Shown here: in pieces, positions 21,178-48,507 of the stretch | How positions within the stretch are numbered: the first letter of the stretch is position 1 | Layout: each line of letters opens with the position of its first letter | Source of the DNA: Pseudomonadota bacterium | Lineage (GTDB): Bacteria > Desulfobacterota > Desulfobulbia > Desulfobulbales > Desulfocapsaceae | Direction: 5' to 3' | Assembly (NCBI GenBank): GCA_018820855.1 | Contig: JAHJNL010000066.1 | Span: 1-49,259 of the forward strand | DNA length: 49,259 bases | The notes under the pieces: model-generated | Database searches by the model: none | What the model was told of the DNA's origin: nothing | The model's input: the letters and a program-made list of their open reading frames with translations, nothing else | Position numbers and translations under genes: made by a program

Positions 21178-21252
21178 TGGAGCGGGAAACGAGATTCGAA
21201 CTCGCGACTTCAACCTTGGCAAGGTTACACTCTACCACTGAGTTATTCCCGC
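21178..21252 (-). tRNA. tRNA-Gly (GCC anticodon)
   Basis: A 75-base tRNA with an encoded 3' CCA. The acceptor stem GCGGGAA pairs with TTCCCGC. The anticodon stem-loop reads CTTGCCAAG, so the anticodon is GCC. The T-arm contains GTTCGAATC. All four arms form. The discriminator base is U, as usual for bacterial tRNA-Gly. The gene has a good promoter upstream and a terminator hairpin downstream. Confidence 0.97.
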
Positions 21253-43065: not shown

Positions 43066-43608
43066 TTAAACAGTGAGTTTGTTTTCTTCGAATAAAATTC
43101 TCCCTTCATCCATCACTCGCGCAATAACAAAAACAATGCATCCCACCAAAAGTGGCGTGATCTCTGCCGAGCCGAACTCAATGTCAATTACTCTACTGCC
43201 GGGCGGGTTGCCCAGTGTGAATAAGACAGTCTTTATTGATTCATAAATCATCGATAAGGCGACCCACAACACGAGAGCTTTGGCAGTGTTTTTGAAAATA
43301 GTGACGAGTTCAAAAGAAAAAATGACACCTTCCCTGTAGTAGGAAAAAAGTTTTCTTATATTTACAAGCCCATAAATTAGTGCGGAAAGAGGAAATAAAC
43401 TGGCGATGAATCCAATAACCTGTAGCTTTATCGGTAAGTTGTGAGGGGCGAGGGACGTCGGCTGGGTATTTACGCTTATTAATCTCGCAGGTAACTGATT
43501 AATGCAGGACCAATAGACGATATAATACAGCGGGATCGCTACGATTAGAATCGAAATTAACAACCTGAAGTTCTTGCTGAATTTTTGAATTTTAATTAAA
43601 TTGTCCAT
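43066..43608 (-). CDS. DUF2975 family membrane protein
   Basis: A 180-residue inner-membrane protein with four hydrophobic helices (about residues 15-35, 62-84, 108-128, 148-166), matching the DUF2975 layout, and a C-terminal RVMDEGRILFEENKLTV. The end DEGRxLxEENxLTV is a hallmark of the family and runs straight into the paired HTH gene. The function is unknown; the partner HTH suggests a membrane-sensor/repressor module. ATG 43608 has GGGAG at close spacing. It is the first gene of the three-gene unit. Confidence 0.9.
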   Translation of the reverse strand: MDNLIKIQKFSKNFRLLISILIVAIPLYYIVYWSCINQLPARLISVNTQPTSLAPHNLPIKLQVIGFIASLFPLSALIYGLVNIRKLFSYYREGVIFSFELVTIFKNTAKALVLWVALSMIYESIKTVLFTLGNPPGSRVIDIEFGSAEITPLLVGCIVFVIARVMDEGRILFEENKLTV

Positions 43609-43737
43609 GATCTCCCACCGTTGTAAGATTTTGAATTACTCATAGAGTACTTTGTTCCCGACCTGCTTCTGTAGCAATTACCATTTTCCGTGTGCATGCA
43701 ACCTGGCGGCAGGTGGCATGCCGGTTTCTGGAGGTGG

Positions 43738-43788
43738 AATATTCCACGATAGTTATCGTTTGTCAATAAGAAATTATCGACTATCGAT
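43738..43788 (-). promoter_or_regulatory. Promoter and palindromic operators of the DUF2975-HTH unit
   Basis: On the minus strand TTGACA (43761-43766) and AATATT (43738-43743) are spaced by 17 bases. The spacer holds the palindrome CGATA-GT-TATCG (43747-43758), and upstream lies a second one, ATCGA-CTA-TCGAT (43776-43788), about 30 bp (near three turns) away. The layout fits autorepression by the encoded HTH protein. The rest of the 43609-44045 gap is otherwise empty apart from the next promoter. Confidence 0.55.
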
Positions 43789-43999
43789 CATGAAAATGCC
43801 GTTTAACGTTGCACGCGTTTAACTCAGTCGAGCTGGATTTTTGGTGTTGTTGGCAGATGTTGTGGGTGATCGATATGGGTACTAAGTCTCCTGCGGTGTT
43901 TTTGTGGTCAATGAGTATGTCAGCAAGGATTCCCTGCCGCAGGCAAGGGTATTTCCTTCCTTGAATTTTAAAAAAAGCAGCTGGGTTTTCATTTTGACT

Positions 44000-44027
44000 T
44001 TGAGAGCTAACTATGCTTAAGTGTAAT
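44000..44027 (+). promoter_or_regulatory. Candidate promoter of the riboswitch gene
   Basis: TTGAGA (44000-44005) and TGTAAT (44022-44027, five of six matches) are separated by 16 bases. Transcription would begin near 44034, about 12 bases before the aptamer. Overlapping TTGACT (43994) could serve as an alternative -35 box. This is a pattern match only. Confidence 0.4.
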
Positions 44028-44045
44028 GAATATTAAGAGATAGAA

Positions 44046-44119
44046 ATACTGTTAAAGCCAAACCTGCTGTAAGGCAGGGGCGGAAAGCCACGGGTCGAGA
44101 ATGATAGCCGGGTTGCCAG
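44046..44119 (+). ncRNA. c-di-GMP-I (GEMM-I) riboswitch aptamer
   Basis: The sequence aligns base by base with the class I cyclic-di-GMP aptamer. GCCAAACC is followed by a 6-bp stem with a GTAA tetraloop (GNRA type, CCTGCT/GGCAGG), then GGCGGAAAGCCACGGG and ATAGCCGGGTTGCC. By my alignment to the Vibrio Vc2 aptamer, the ligand-contacting G20, A47 and C92 are retained, while the G21-C46 pair appears swapped as C-G. That is a compensatory change supporting the fold. G rather than A at position 20 suggests c-di-GMP rather than 3',3'-cGAMP as ligand. The P2/P3 arm is unusually short. The 3' strand overlaps a terminator, so ligand binding should favour readthrough (an ON switch). Confidence 0.87.
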
Positions 44120-44148
44120 AAGAAATGGGCAACCCGGCTTTTTTTTTT
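44107..44148 (+). terminator. Riboswitch expression-platform terminator
   Basis: GCCGGGTTGCC (44107-44117) pairs perfectly with GGCAACCCGGC (44128-44138), followed by ten T residues. The 5' arm is also the 3' strand of the aptamer, so the two structures exclude each other. With no ligand the terminator should form. Confidence 0.92.
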
Positions 44149-44211
44149 GCGCAGAGGAAAGAGGCAGAATGTACCTCTGGCTTACTGGAACTTTACATGG
44201 GGAGAGAATCA

Positions 44212-44637
44212 ATGAAGAAGATTGCTGTTCTGTTAAGTCTGTTACTCCTGAGTATTGTGGCAGTTTCTGCCATTGCTGCGGATAAAGTGGTTGTGGTGCC
44301 TTTGAATTCGAGCAGGGTGCAGCCAGAACTTGTTCCCTTGGCCCAGGGAGAAATCAGCACCTACACTGGCAACATACTCTCAACGGGTCATTATGGGATC
44401 AGTTCAACAGTGTTGAATGGAACAGGAGATGTTACGGTCACCTTCACTTCCAGCTGGGTTGGTTATCCTGCAGTAATGACGGGGTCTTGGGCCACTTCTG
44501 CCCTAACCTCCAACACTCTCGTGTATTATAATGCTAGCATCAATTCTAATACTATTAGATTTTATACAAAAGACAGTGCCTCAGGAGCATTAGAAAATGG
44601 ATATTTCAGCTTTGTTGTGTTTGGTCAAAAGCAATAG
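44212..44637 (+). CDS. c-di-GMP riboswitch-controlled small secreted protein
   Basis: A 141-residue protein with a clear Sec signal peptide (KKIAVLLSLLLLSIVAVSAIAA, seen as a basic start plus LLSLLLLSIVAV, cleavage near AIAA-DK). The mature ~118 residues are rich in Ser, Thr, Gly, Val and Tyr, nearly free of cysteine and predicted mostly beta-strand, with a C-terminal segment RFYTKDSASGALENGYF. I do not recognise a family. It could be a matrix, surface or appendage component. ATG 44212 follows GGGGAGAG. In-frame upstream codons to 44101 fall in the riboswitch and should not be translated. It is the only gene before the oppositely oriented HD-GYP gene. Confidence 0.85.
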   Translation: MKKIAVLLSLLLLSIVAVSAIAADKVVVVPLNSSRVQPELVPLAQGEISTYTGNILSTGHYGISSTVLNGTGDVTVTFTSSWVGYPAVMTGSWATSALTSNTLVYYNASINSNTIRFYTKDSASGALENGYFSFVVFGQKQ

Positions 44638-44822
44638 GGCGTAGCCTGCAAGGGTTGCTGAAGGTAGAGTGTTGAGCTTCACTCATACGGTTGAGCCCGG
44701 TTTGTTGGGGACTGTTTCGGCCTGAGGACGGAGAGGAGGGGGCCTGATTGCTCAGGCGGGAATGTGAATCCGGGAGAAGTCTGCCGGGTTCGTGAGGGGG
44801 AGCCAAGGGGGATGCTCTGCAC

Positions 44823-47060
44823 TCAGATGGAGATGTGTCCCTGGTCCGGGTACATTTCACTGAGTGTCTGCTGCCGGTTGTTCAGAGCGAGGATTTCCAG
44901 TCTTTCCAGTTTGTCGATGGTATAGGCCTTTTCAGATAAAAGGTCTATATGGTGGAGTTCGATCTCAATCTCGGTGCTGCGGATGCATGAAAAGGCGTTG
45001 AATGTCTTACTGTCCAGGGCAAGATGTTTTTTGGAGATGATGGCAAAATCATTTCCGTAGGCTCTGAACACAAGGGCCTCTGGGAAACTGGTCTGCAGTT
45101 CGGCGGCCAACTCTTTGAAAAGGGCATTTCCCCTGGCCCAACCGTGATGCTTGTTGTATTCCGGAACCTTCAAAAGGTGCAGCATGTGCAGGCAGACATA
45201 GTGATTTATGTCCAGGTTGTTCAGGACTATCTTCAGGTAATCCTCGTTGTAGAGCCCTGTCAGCATGTCATTGAAAAAGTAGGAAAATCTCTTCTTTTCC
45301 AGGTTGCTTACCGGTAGCTGGTTGATGGTGTTGGAGATCTTGATGTTGGCCAGCACCTTGACCGCAGCCTTCACAACCTCGGGATGAAACTGACTGCCGC
45401 TCAAGGCCTGAAGCTCGGCCAGGGCTTCGGGCAACTCTTTTTTGGCCTTATAAATACGGTTGGTGGTCATGGCATCAAAGGCGTCGCCAACTACCATGAT
45501 CCGGGAAAGCAGGGGGATCTCGTCACCCTTCAGGCCATCGGGATAGCCCTTGCCGTCGTGTCTTTCGTGATGGTGGTGGATGATCACGGCCAGTTCCTGG
45601 TACATCTCGATCTTCGAGAGCATCTCATACCCGGCAAAGGCATGAAGTTTGATGAGGTCATAATCCAGACTGGTCAGCTTACCGGGCTTGAGCAGAACGG
45701 AATCCGGCGTGGCAATCTTGCCGATGTCATGAAGAATGGCGGCCTTATAGAGGTTTTTGATCTCTTCAAGCTCAATGCCCATTTCTCTGGCAATCTTTTC
45801 GCAATACTGAGCAACGCGCTCGGTATGACCGGCAGTATAGGTGTCTCTTTGCTCAATCATGTCAGCAAACGAGAAGATTGTTTCTTCGTAATTGGCAGTG
45901 CGTTCGGCAGTGAGTTTTGTGATCGCTTCTTTTTGTCTGAAGGAATCAATGGCAAAACCGATATCGCCCGCCAGTTCATCCAGCATCTCTTTTTCTTCCG
46001 GCTCAAAGCCTTCCTTACGCCAGGTGTAGATGGTCAGGACGCCGAGGGGAGGAGCAGACTGGTGGGCGCGCAGGGGAAGACTGATGACGGCCTGGAACCC
46101 TGTTACCTTCTCCGGGTTGAGACACGGCGTCTGGTTTGGTTTCTTCGGGTCGATTTCGCGGATTACGATTTGATTGTCCCTGAGACATTGGGCTGCGGAA
46201 CTCTGGTAAAAGACACCGCTTGTATCTTGTATCTTATAGGGTGGGGCAACGAGAGGGTTGCTTGCTGTGTCGGAGGTGTGCACTGAATGGATTTCGTCGT
46301 TTTCCAGCAGGCCGATCCAGCAGAAGTCGTAATGGCCGTGTTGCACGAACCGGGTGCAGGAGCTTTCCAGCAGGCTGACAATGTTTGGCGTGGTTATCAG
46401 CAGCTTGTTGATATGGGCAACCGTATTCATGATTTCTCGAAGATACCGTTCCTGGTCAAGAAGGGTTCCGATTTTGTTCGTACGTTGGGCCACCTTTGTC
46501 TCAAGGGTTCTGTTGAAATATTCCACTTTTTTCTTGTCACGCTTTACCTTTTCTGTCAGCAGTCCCACCGGTATGGCGATAAAAAAGAGGAAACCGATGC
46601 GCATGGCAAGATCGGTCCATTCGATCTCCGTGAGCATGGGAAAAATACTGATAACATAACAGCATGCGGAAACAACGGCGACTACCAGGCCAAAGTTAAG
46701 CCCGAAGTAGATGGTGTGCAGGCAGATAAGCAGGTAATATCCGAGAAAAAAGCTGCTCTCAAAGTTTGTTTCCGCATGAACCAGATTAGAGAGAAATATT
46801 ATGTCGAGAAAAAGGGATGTCAGGTACACTTTTTCCAACAGCTCCGGTTTGCAGAAAATGACCAGGTAACAAAGGACGCTGTATATGGAAAACCAGACGA
46901 GGGCCTTGATTACGATGGTCTTTTCCACCGGGGAAAGTGGCACAATCAGGAGCCAGGCAATGCCGCCGACAAGACTGAAAACCCGTAACAGTAAAAAGGT
47001 AAGGTCAACCTCAGTGGCGCCATCAATAACTTTTTTCCAGTGTTTTTTTAAAAAAAACAT
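44823..47060 (-). CDS. Membrane GAF-HD-GYP protein with degenerate C-terminal GGDEF
   Basis: A 745-residue predicted c-di-GMP phosphodiesterase. About five to six N-terminal helices lie between residues 20 and 170, followed by a short coiled linker and a GAF-like sensor domain (about 210-375). The HD-GYP domain has the metal/catalytic motifs HDIGKI (444-449) and HHERHDGKGYP (497-507) intact, so it should hydrolyse c-di-GMP to GMP. The last ~150 residues look like a GGDEF domain whose active site reads YGNDF (668-672), so it is probably catalytically dead and may bind ligand or act structurally. GGDEF behind HD-GYP is the less common order. It is convergent with the riboswitch gene. The start ATG 47060 has only a weak ribosome-binding site. 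Confidence 0.92.
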   Translation of the reverse strand: MFFLKKHWKKVIDGATEVDLTFLLLRVFSLVGGIAWLLIVPLSPVEKTIVIKALVWFSIYSVLCYLVIFCKPELLEKVYLTSLFLDIIFLSNLVHAETNFESSFFLGYYLLICLHTIYFGLNFGLVVAVVSACCYVISIFPMLTEIEWTDLAMRIGFLFFIAIPVGLLTEKVKRDKKKVEYFNRTLETKVAQRTNKIGTLLDQERYLREIMNTVAHINKLLITTPNIVSLLESSCTRFVQHGHYDFCWIGLLENDEIHSVHTSDTASNPLVAPPYKIQDTSGVFYQSSAAQCLRDNQIVIREIDPKKPNQTPCLNPEKVTGFQAVISLPLRAHQSAPPLGVLTIYTWRKEGFEPEEKEMLDELAGDIGFAIDSFRQKEAITKLTAERTANYEETIFSFADMIEQRDTYTAGHTERVAQYCEKIAREMGIELEEIKNLYKAAILHDIGKIATPDSVLLKPGKLTSLDYDLIKLHAFAGYEMLSKIEMYQELAVIIHHHHERHDGKGYPDGLKGDEIPLLSRIMVVGDAFDAMTTNRIYKAKKELPEALAELQALSGSQFHPEVVKAAVKVLANIKISNTINQLPVSNLEKKRFSYFFNDMLTGLYNEDYLKIVLNNLDINHYVCLHMLHLLKVPEYNKHHGWARGNALFKELAAELQTSFPEALVFRAYGNDFAIISKKHLALDSKTFNAFSCIRSTEIEIELHHIDLLSEKAYTIDKLERLEILALNNRQQTLSEMYPDQGHISI

Positions 47061-47415: not shown

Positions 47416-48507
47416 TTAGAGTTCTTGTTCTGTTTTGATGGAAAAACCTGATTCCTTTTTTGCTTCATACATGGCCTTGTCGGCCTTTCTCACCAGTAAA
47501 TTTGCATCATAGTTGTTTTCCGGTGAAGATATTGCAATACCCATGCTGCATGAAACACCTGTGTCTTCTGTTGATCTTTTTATAACCTCACAGAGCCTTT
47601 GGCAGAGTCGTTCCGCTTCCTCTAAAGTGCTTTCCGGTAATATTATACAAAATTCATCACCGCCATACCTGGCACTGATCTCATTTTCTCTAAGTGTACT
47701 CTTCAAGGATTTGGCCACAGCCACAAGAATCTCGTCGCCACGTTTGTGTCCTTGAGAATCGTTTAATTTTTTGAATCCATCAAGATCGAAATATATGAGG
47801 ACCGTGGAATGATTTCTTCTTTGGCCACGCGCTAATTCCCGCCTCAACTCGGTATAAAATGAACGTTGATTTAATAAGTTCGTAAGTCCATCGTAATGGG
47901 CCTGTCTTTTTAATAATTTGGTGCGTTCCGAGATAACTTCTTCGAGAGATTCCGTATAATGCTCTAACTCTTCCTTGCTTCTTCTGGTCTCTTCCATGAG
48001 ACTATTGATATAGGTGTCAAAAGTGAGAGAGAGATCAAACATGATGATTTTGTCTATTGCCGTTAAACTGGCCACACATGAATGACAATCATCAGTGCTG
48101 TACAAGCTCACAGCGTTACGTATTATTGTGCTCAAATTATGTACAGCTGAGACGTAAAATTTAGGATCTACCCCTATTCGGTTATGGACTACTCCAACCC
48201 GAAGTCTGGAATGGACATAATCTTCATCATAATGACCATCGAAGAGGCTTACTATATAATTGCGTAGATAATTCTTCAGGCGGTGAAGAGTTTCTGCGTC
48301 GCCGATAACGCGATCCATTTCATGAAAAGTAAGAATTTTCCTATAAAACTCTTCAACGATTTCGTCAATATTGTCAGATATAAGCTCTCGTAGTGAGAGC
48401 AAAATGCTAATGTCTTGTTCGGTAAAGCCAAGGTATTCTTTACGGCGTTCTATTTCCTGCTTGGTGATTTTAAGCTGCTCAATAAGAGTCTGGTCTGTTG
48501 TTTTCAT
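47416..48507 (-). CDS. Globin-coupled sensor diguanylate cyclase
   Basis: A 363-residue cytoplasmic protein. The N-terminal domain (about residues 15-165) is a globin-coupled-sensor fold: the proximal histidine that binds haem iron is H108 in VGVVHNRIGVDPKFYV. A helical linker (about 170-200) leads to a GGDEF domain (about 203-355) with an intact RYGGDEF active site at 280-286 and the substrate motif FDLDGFKKLNDSQGH (core DLDGFKKLND). The allosteric inhibition site reads RENE instead of RxxD, so product inhibition may be weak. Known homologues (DosC type) make c-di-GMP in response to oxygen, so an O2 signal is likely. ATG 48507 is used. Confidence 0.94.
   Translation of the reverse strand: MKTTDQTLIEQLKITKQEIERRKEYLGFTEQDISILLSLRELISDNIDEIVEEFYRKILTFHEMDRVIGDAETLHRLKNYLRNYIVSLFDGHYDEDYVHSRLRVGVVHNRIGVDPKFYVSAVHNLSTIIRNAVSLYSTDDCHSCVASLTAIDKIIMFDLSLTFDTYINSLMEETRRSKEELEHYTESLEEVISERTKLLKRQAHYDGLTNLLNQRSFYTELRRELARGQRRNHSTVLIYFDLDGFKKLNDSQGHKRGDEILVAVAKSLKSTLRENEISARYGGDEFCIILPESTLEEAERLCQRLCEVIKRSTEDTGVSCSMGIAISSPENNYDANLLVRKADKAMYEAKKESGFSIKTEQEL

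Follow-up and report, generated by a model that had tools for sequence, protein, structure and literature searches.

A c-di-GMP-I aptamer overlapped by an intrinsic terminator, very likely an ordinary ON riboswitch, upstream of a 141-aa gene in a probably Desulfocapsa-like bacterium

Introduction

Among the closest described relatives of the element reported here is Vc2, the type member of the c-di-GMP-I riboswitches (RF01051). In the excerpts available from the literature on this class, the highly conserved positions are given as G20, C22, A23, A25, G32, A35, G42, C44, G45, A47, A48, A49, C59, G79, G83, G90 and C92, with G20, A47, A48 and C92 as the ligand-contact residues; positions 21 and 46 are absent from the list as it appears in those excerpts (PMC3764141). 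Conserved residues are no proof of binding, since Vc1 is described, in the part of its report available, as keeping three contact residues yet binding weakly (PMC4744006).

Two further systems are useful for comparison, again as set out in the available parts of their sources. In the pilM riboswitch of Geobacter, which switches ON, the terminator sequesters C75, the ligand-pairing C, whereas Cd1 of Clostridioides difficile, although of the same aptamer class and also acting on transcription, switches OFF and uses a separate antiterminator (PMC9262584). Geobacter riboswitches of the GEMM-Ib type (pilM/Gmet_0970, Gs1761) carry A20 and bind cGAMP, and the single change A20G in the Gmet_0970 cGAMP riboswitch leads to c-di-GMP selectivity (PMC6456294).

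A c-di-GMP-I aptamer with intact contact residues

The window, by which we mean the whole stretch of 49,259 nucleotides analysed (contig JAHJNL010000066.1 of assembly GCA_018820855.1), carries a c-di-GMP-I aptamer on its forward strand. The covariance model RF01051, named as the appropriate check in the original prediction, scored 66.6 bits (E 1.3e-12 for the genome; curated cut-off 35), and RF03167 (c-di-GMP-I-GGC) scored 67.5 bits (E 6.4e-14; curated cut-off 59), so the predicted aptamer type is well founded. The only other Rfam match over cut-off in the window was a tRNA gene on the reverse strand (21181-21252).

The fold, G20, A47-A49, C92, the GNRA loop of P2 and the interhelical C44-G83 are all as in Vc2, and the differences lie in the pair 21-46 (C-G here, G-C in Vc2), the short P3 and the overlapping terminator (Table 1). 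Read letter by letter, G20, A47 and C92 are present as had been claimed from the sequence, and A48 (A44085) completes the set of published ligand contacts; all three P1 pairs, the tetraloop, C44 and G83 are likewise intact, the docking of the tetraloop being predicted. Over the positions that were placed (C59, G79 and G90 were left out), the window agrees with the conserved list at G20, C22, A23, A25, G42, C44, G45, A47-A49, G83 and C92, as well as at G32 and A35, which are the G and the last A of the tetraloop. The P2/P3 arm, described beforehand as very short, can fairly be called short. The end of the element had been placed at 44212, which is the first base of the downstream ATG, whereas the riboswitch ends at about 44148.

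For the 75-nt aptamer alone, the energy model gave -24.3 kcal/mol for another fold, in which C92 pairs with G46, against -20.4 kcal/mol for the aptamer fold; with the alternative ahead by 3.9 kcal/mol, this model, which includes neither ligand nor tertiary contacts, does not predict the aptamer by itself.

Table 1 Features of the riboswitch locus, in window coordinates (residue numbers follow Vc2)
Feature	Position	Strand	Details and basis
c-di-GMP-I (GEMM-I) aptamer	44048-44121	+	RF03167 67.5 bits, RF01051 66.6 bits
G14-C93	44051-44117	+	letters, Vc2 numbering
G20, ligand-selecting residue (A in cGAMP-type members)	44057	+	letters, alignment; role from PMC6456294 (excerpt)
C21-G46 pair	44058 with 44083	+	letters, alignment
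C22-G45 pair, inside C21-G46	44059 with 44082	+	letters
P2 stem, 6 bp	44063-44078	+	GUAA tetraloop 44069-44072
C44 and G83 (interhelical)	44081 and 44107	+	letters, Vc2 numbering
A47, stacked between the two ligand bases	44084	+	letters, alignment; role from PMC3764141 (excerpt)
A47-A49	44084-44086	+	letters, Vc2 numbering
P3 helix	44086-44114	+	bulged A-G 44106-44107 (including G83), apical 6-nt loop 44097-44102; covariance-model alignment
C92, ligand-pairing residue	44116	+	partner of G44129 when the terminator forms
Intrinsic terminator	44106-44148	+	stem 44106-44117 with 44128-44139, loop 44118-44127, T run 44139-44148
Predicted regulated gene, 141 aa	44212-44637	+	ATG at 44212; probable signal peptide, AADKVVVVPLN segment
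GAF/HD-GYP protein, weak GGDEF match	44823-47060	-	adjoins the riboswitch gene
Protoglobin-GGDEF protein	47416-48507	-	beside the riboswitch gene

A terminator that takes its 5' arm from the aptamer

The aptamer is overlapped by a real terminator. Its stem is perfect, as originally proposed, and has 12 bp, with a 10-nt loop and 10 T; the earlier count of 11 bp omitted the A-U pair formed with the first T of the run. The whole element (44047-44149) folds with -43.8 kcal/mol (z -4.1), and none of 200 shuffles was as stable. The hairpin was not listed by the pattern scan for terminators, since that scan allows only loops of 3-8 and the loop here has 10 nt. When the growing transcript was folded, transcription as far as 44135 put the terminator fold 10 kcal/mol ahead of that of the aptamer, and by 44149 the lead had reached 23 kcal/mol; in the terminator fold C92 is paired with 44129. 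The scan of the + strand of 43600-44800 for a sigma-70-like promoter found none.

The arrangement recurs. A 5' terminator arm containing C92 was found in 11 of the 12 copies of the aptamer in the same genome (the exception being L020), compared with 22 of 2000 random window positions, and in 34 of 49 copies from relatives and none of 32 from a phylum-wide sample, by a rule that tolerates one mismatch and misses the imperfect hairpins of locus L178.

Since the 5' arm, C92 included, lies within the aptamer, the layout predicts an ON switch, in keeping with the ligand-dependent antitermination that had been anticipated. Without ligand, RNA polymerase would transcribe the aptamer first and the 3' arm (44128-44139) after it; this arm would pair with 44106-44117 into an intrinsic terminator ahead of the gene, opening P3 at its lower end and disrupting the interhelical G83, the ligand-pairing residue C92 and one strand of P1. 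With c-di-GMP bound, G20 and C92 would contact its bases and A47 would be stacked between them; the aptamer would then retain the shared strand and transcription would continue into the gene for the 141-aa, putatively secreted protein, which is very probably switched on at high c-di-GMP. Such an ON layout, with a terminator sequestering the ligand-pairing C, is that of the Geobacter pilM riboswitch (PMC9262584), and is unlike the OFF arrangement of Cd1. Taking all lines of evidence together, we hold with high confidence that this is an ordinary single-aptamer c-di-GMP-I transcriptional ON riboswitch preceding the 141-aa gene.

The swapped 21-46 pair is common within the class

The C21-G46 pair in place of G21-C46 had been highlighted as a compensatory change arguing for a folded variant, and the letters confirm the swap. 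To place it, we aligned 93 aptamers, comprising 12 from the same genome, 49 from relatives and 32 from the phylum. The pair was C-G in 55, G-C in 38 and unpaired in none, proportions that are not a population frequency, since the sampling favoured high scores (relatives were sampled via RF03167, and the phylum was represented by its top-scoring RF01051 loci). In this genome, every one of the 12 copies has G20, C21-G46, A47 and C92, with U22-A45 replacing C22-G45 in one of them, and over the whole alignment A47 and A48 were present in 93 of 93, G20 in 90 and C92 in 92. The paired cells amounted to 94.4%, against 75.6% in shuffles, in an alignment fitted to a model that derived from 41 such sequences, a fit that leans toward pairing. 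The compensatory change is thus real and confirms the pairing, but with C-G prevailing in the alignment and universal in the genome's own copies it does not mark a special variant.

Searching with a pattern that fixed C21-G46 and allowed G or A at position 20 returned at least 117 stretches of named contigs. Among the matches listed, the 123 with enough flank had G20 in 119 cases and A20 in 4, and the matches listed span Deltaproteobacteria, Gammaproteobacteria and Campylobacterota. A rare variant can therefore be ruled out: C21-G46 is the commoner state in our sample, is widespread among named bacteria, and is an everyday state of the c-di-GMP-I class. A tally by pattern across the phylum gave C-G in 134 of 395 genomes and G-C in 126 of 395, both upper bounds since chance matches are included and a backwards control pattern matches many genomes too.

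In the sample of 93, a C92-overlapping terminator accompanied C21-G46 in 45 of 55 aptamers and G21-C46 in none of 38. The idea that the swap is required for the terminator was nevertheless weakened by a set of 108 C21-G46 aptamers, drawn from 98 of the at least 117 pattern loci; 43 of these aptamers have such a terminator. By lineage, assigned by hand, it was present in 36 of 70 aptamers from Deltaproteobacteria, 4 of 18 from Gammaproteobacteria, none of 6 from Campylobacterota and 3 of 12 others, and in neither of the two remaining matches; since the 43 are mostly deltaproteobacterial, the link between terminator and swap is at least partly one of lineage.

We also considered whether the swap hides the ligand site through C92-G46 pairing when ligand is absent. 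This pairing is possible only with G46 (in silico probability 0.74 in the window copy). Flipping the pair in silico, however, raised total C92 pairing from 0.45 to 0.70 in the genome's own copies and from 0.53 to 0.79 in relatives, so the idea is not supported generally; in two phylum rows total C92 pairing fell from 0.99 to 0.60. The mean predicted pairing of 21 with 46 went down on flipping in the genome's own copies (0.33 to 0.25) and in the C-G and the G-C relatives (0.35 to 0.19 and 0.33 to 0.16), as it did in the G-C copies of the phylum (0.33 to 0.09), whereas in the two C-G copies of the phylum it went up (0.00 to 0.21). This may hint, and no more, that the pair is co-adapted with its sequence context. 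That short-P3 aptamers with C21-G46, G20 and A47 make up a distinct c-di-GMP subclass, in which the orientation of the core pair and the sequence around it are jointly tuned for fast ON switching by way of a terminator that takes C92, possibly with a mixed c-di-GMP/cGAMP range, seems to us unlikely.

c-di-GMP is the most likely ligand

The C21-G46 pair also occurs in the two A20 copies of locus L178. This locus may resemble the Gs1761 crystal construct. Together with the short P3 and the overlapping terminator, which resemble what the available text says of pilM (PMC9262584), and with the GEMM-I riboswitch of the Geobacter OmcST operon, which according to the excerpt at hand responds to both ligands (PMC6456294), these similarities raise the question of whether the window element is instead a GEMM-Ib sensor of 3',3'-cGAMP, like the Geobacter riboswitches of the same layout. 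The residue that decides is position 20. It is G44057 here rather than the A of GEMM-Ib, it is G in all 12 copies of the genome, and its change from A to G was enough by itself to make Gmet_0970 selective for c-di-GMP (PMC6456294). The genome encodes 39 GGDEF domains (40 matches), and in all 32 that could be read, with 7 of the 39 left unread, the Hypr specificity residue is Asp, with Ser or Thr in none. The protoglobin-GGDEF and HD-GYP genes adjacent on the opposite strand (Table 1) also count in favour of the c-di-GMP reading. Because of G20 and of Asp in every readable domain, c-di-GMP is most likely the ligand, as judged from sequence, and a cGAMP sensor is very unlikely.

The Rfam label c-di-GMP-I-GGC is doubtful

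RF03167 is the best-scoring family of its clan at the locus, 0.9 bits above RF01051, and is over cut-off at 11 copies in this genome and in 25 of the 56 genomes of relatives. On that score the element could be assigned to the variant class c-di-GMP-I-GGC, possibly with another ligand or affinity. The RF03167 consensus, however, has G at model position 37 (position 47) and G-C at 11-36 (21-46), against A47 (A44084) and C-G in the window. Going by the model consensus and the name, 'GGC' would stand for residues 20, 47 and 92, and G47 would define the class; the literature naming it yielded no definition in the parts available.

G47 was found in none of the 93 aptamers, all of which have A47. An exact G47 motif matched 59 places in 47 of 395 phylum genomes, which on inspection looked like chance matches: 5 of the 6 P2 pairs were possible in one of the 56 distinct strings, and its place had no match to the covariance model R1 at E up to 1, so we rejected the notion of true G47 members in the phylum. 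The label is doubtful since the consensus has G47 and all 93 aptamers A47; RF03167 most likely captures the phylum's ordinary A47 aptamers, and membership of the window element in a separate GGC class is highly improbable. For annotation this means that canonical G20/A47 aptamers are called c-di-GMP-I-GGC although the residue that seemingly sets the class is absent, and many c-di-GMP-I riboswitches of the phylum probably receive this wrong label through clan competition.

The downstream gene and the other copies in the genome

Just 5' of the ATG at 44212 lies a purine-rich stretch, GGGGAGAG, likely the ribosome-binding site of the 141-aa gene. The protein appears to start with a signal peptide, followed by AADKVVVVPLN, and is probably secreted. 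It had no match in Pfam or NCBIfam, and its structure model was of low confidence (mean pLDDT 64). With its own genome included, 4 of 56 genomes contain a homologue. The closest, with 69% identity, is in a genome of the same genus (G018), where the same aptamer (77.8 bits) and the same terminator are again present at the same place, about 90 bases upstream, with changes in P2 that preserve pairing. A second homologue, in G006 (68% identity), has a riboswitch on the other strand only; a search of its 3.3-kb locus showed none of this kind on the strand of the gene.

The genome holds 12 copies over the RF01051 cut-off, and a degenerate thirteenth (L021:1501-1574, that is G000:C92:24449-24522) that scored 27.3 bits, below it; this last copy was left out of the alignment and by eye has U21 and G46. 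Such a copy, like the G006 homologue, might suggest that the window element too has decayed, leaving an aptamer remnant ahead of a plain, ligand-independent terminator or attenuator. Yet its contact residues, tetraloop, C44, G83 and three P1 pairs are all intact, 12 copies have been retained, and G018 keeps both layout and P2 pairing, which makes decay highly unlikely.

With the window element read as a working c-di-GMP-I ON switch, this little-studied, probably Desulfocapsa-like bacterium contributes a further c-di-GMP-I regulon of 12 members, almost all of them ON by layout, and the 141-aa gene offers a target gene for testing. The ORFs that follow the other copies, picked by eye with L013 left out and with putative operon membership, match T2SSE (L010), a winged-helix family (L011), T6SS Hcp (L012), a methyltransferase (L014), an alanine-zipper lipoprotein (L015), GEVED (L019) and CarboxypepD_reg (L020), and those after L016, L017 and L018 had no family match. 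The set is surface- and envelope-leaning, as expected of c-di-GMP-I regulons.

The ORFs for putative secreted proteins at 44212-44637, at L017:1788-2345 and in L226 have a common N-terminal AA(D/N)(K/R)VV(V/I)(V/I)PL and differ in the rest; riboswitches precede the first two. Tandem riboswitch arrays were also seen, at L049, L046, L184-like loci and G116:C9, L049 (a Desulfosudis MAG) having as many as four consecutive pattern matches and L046 three.
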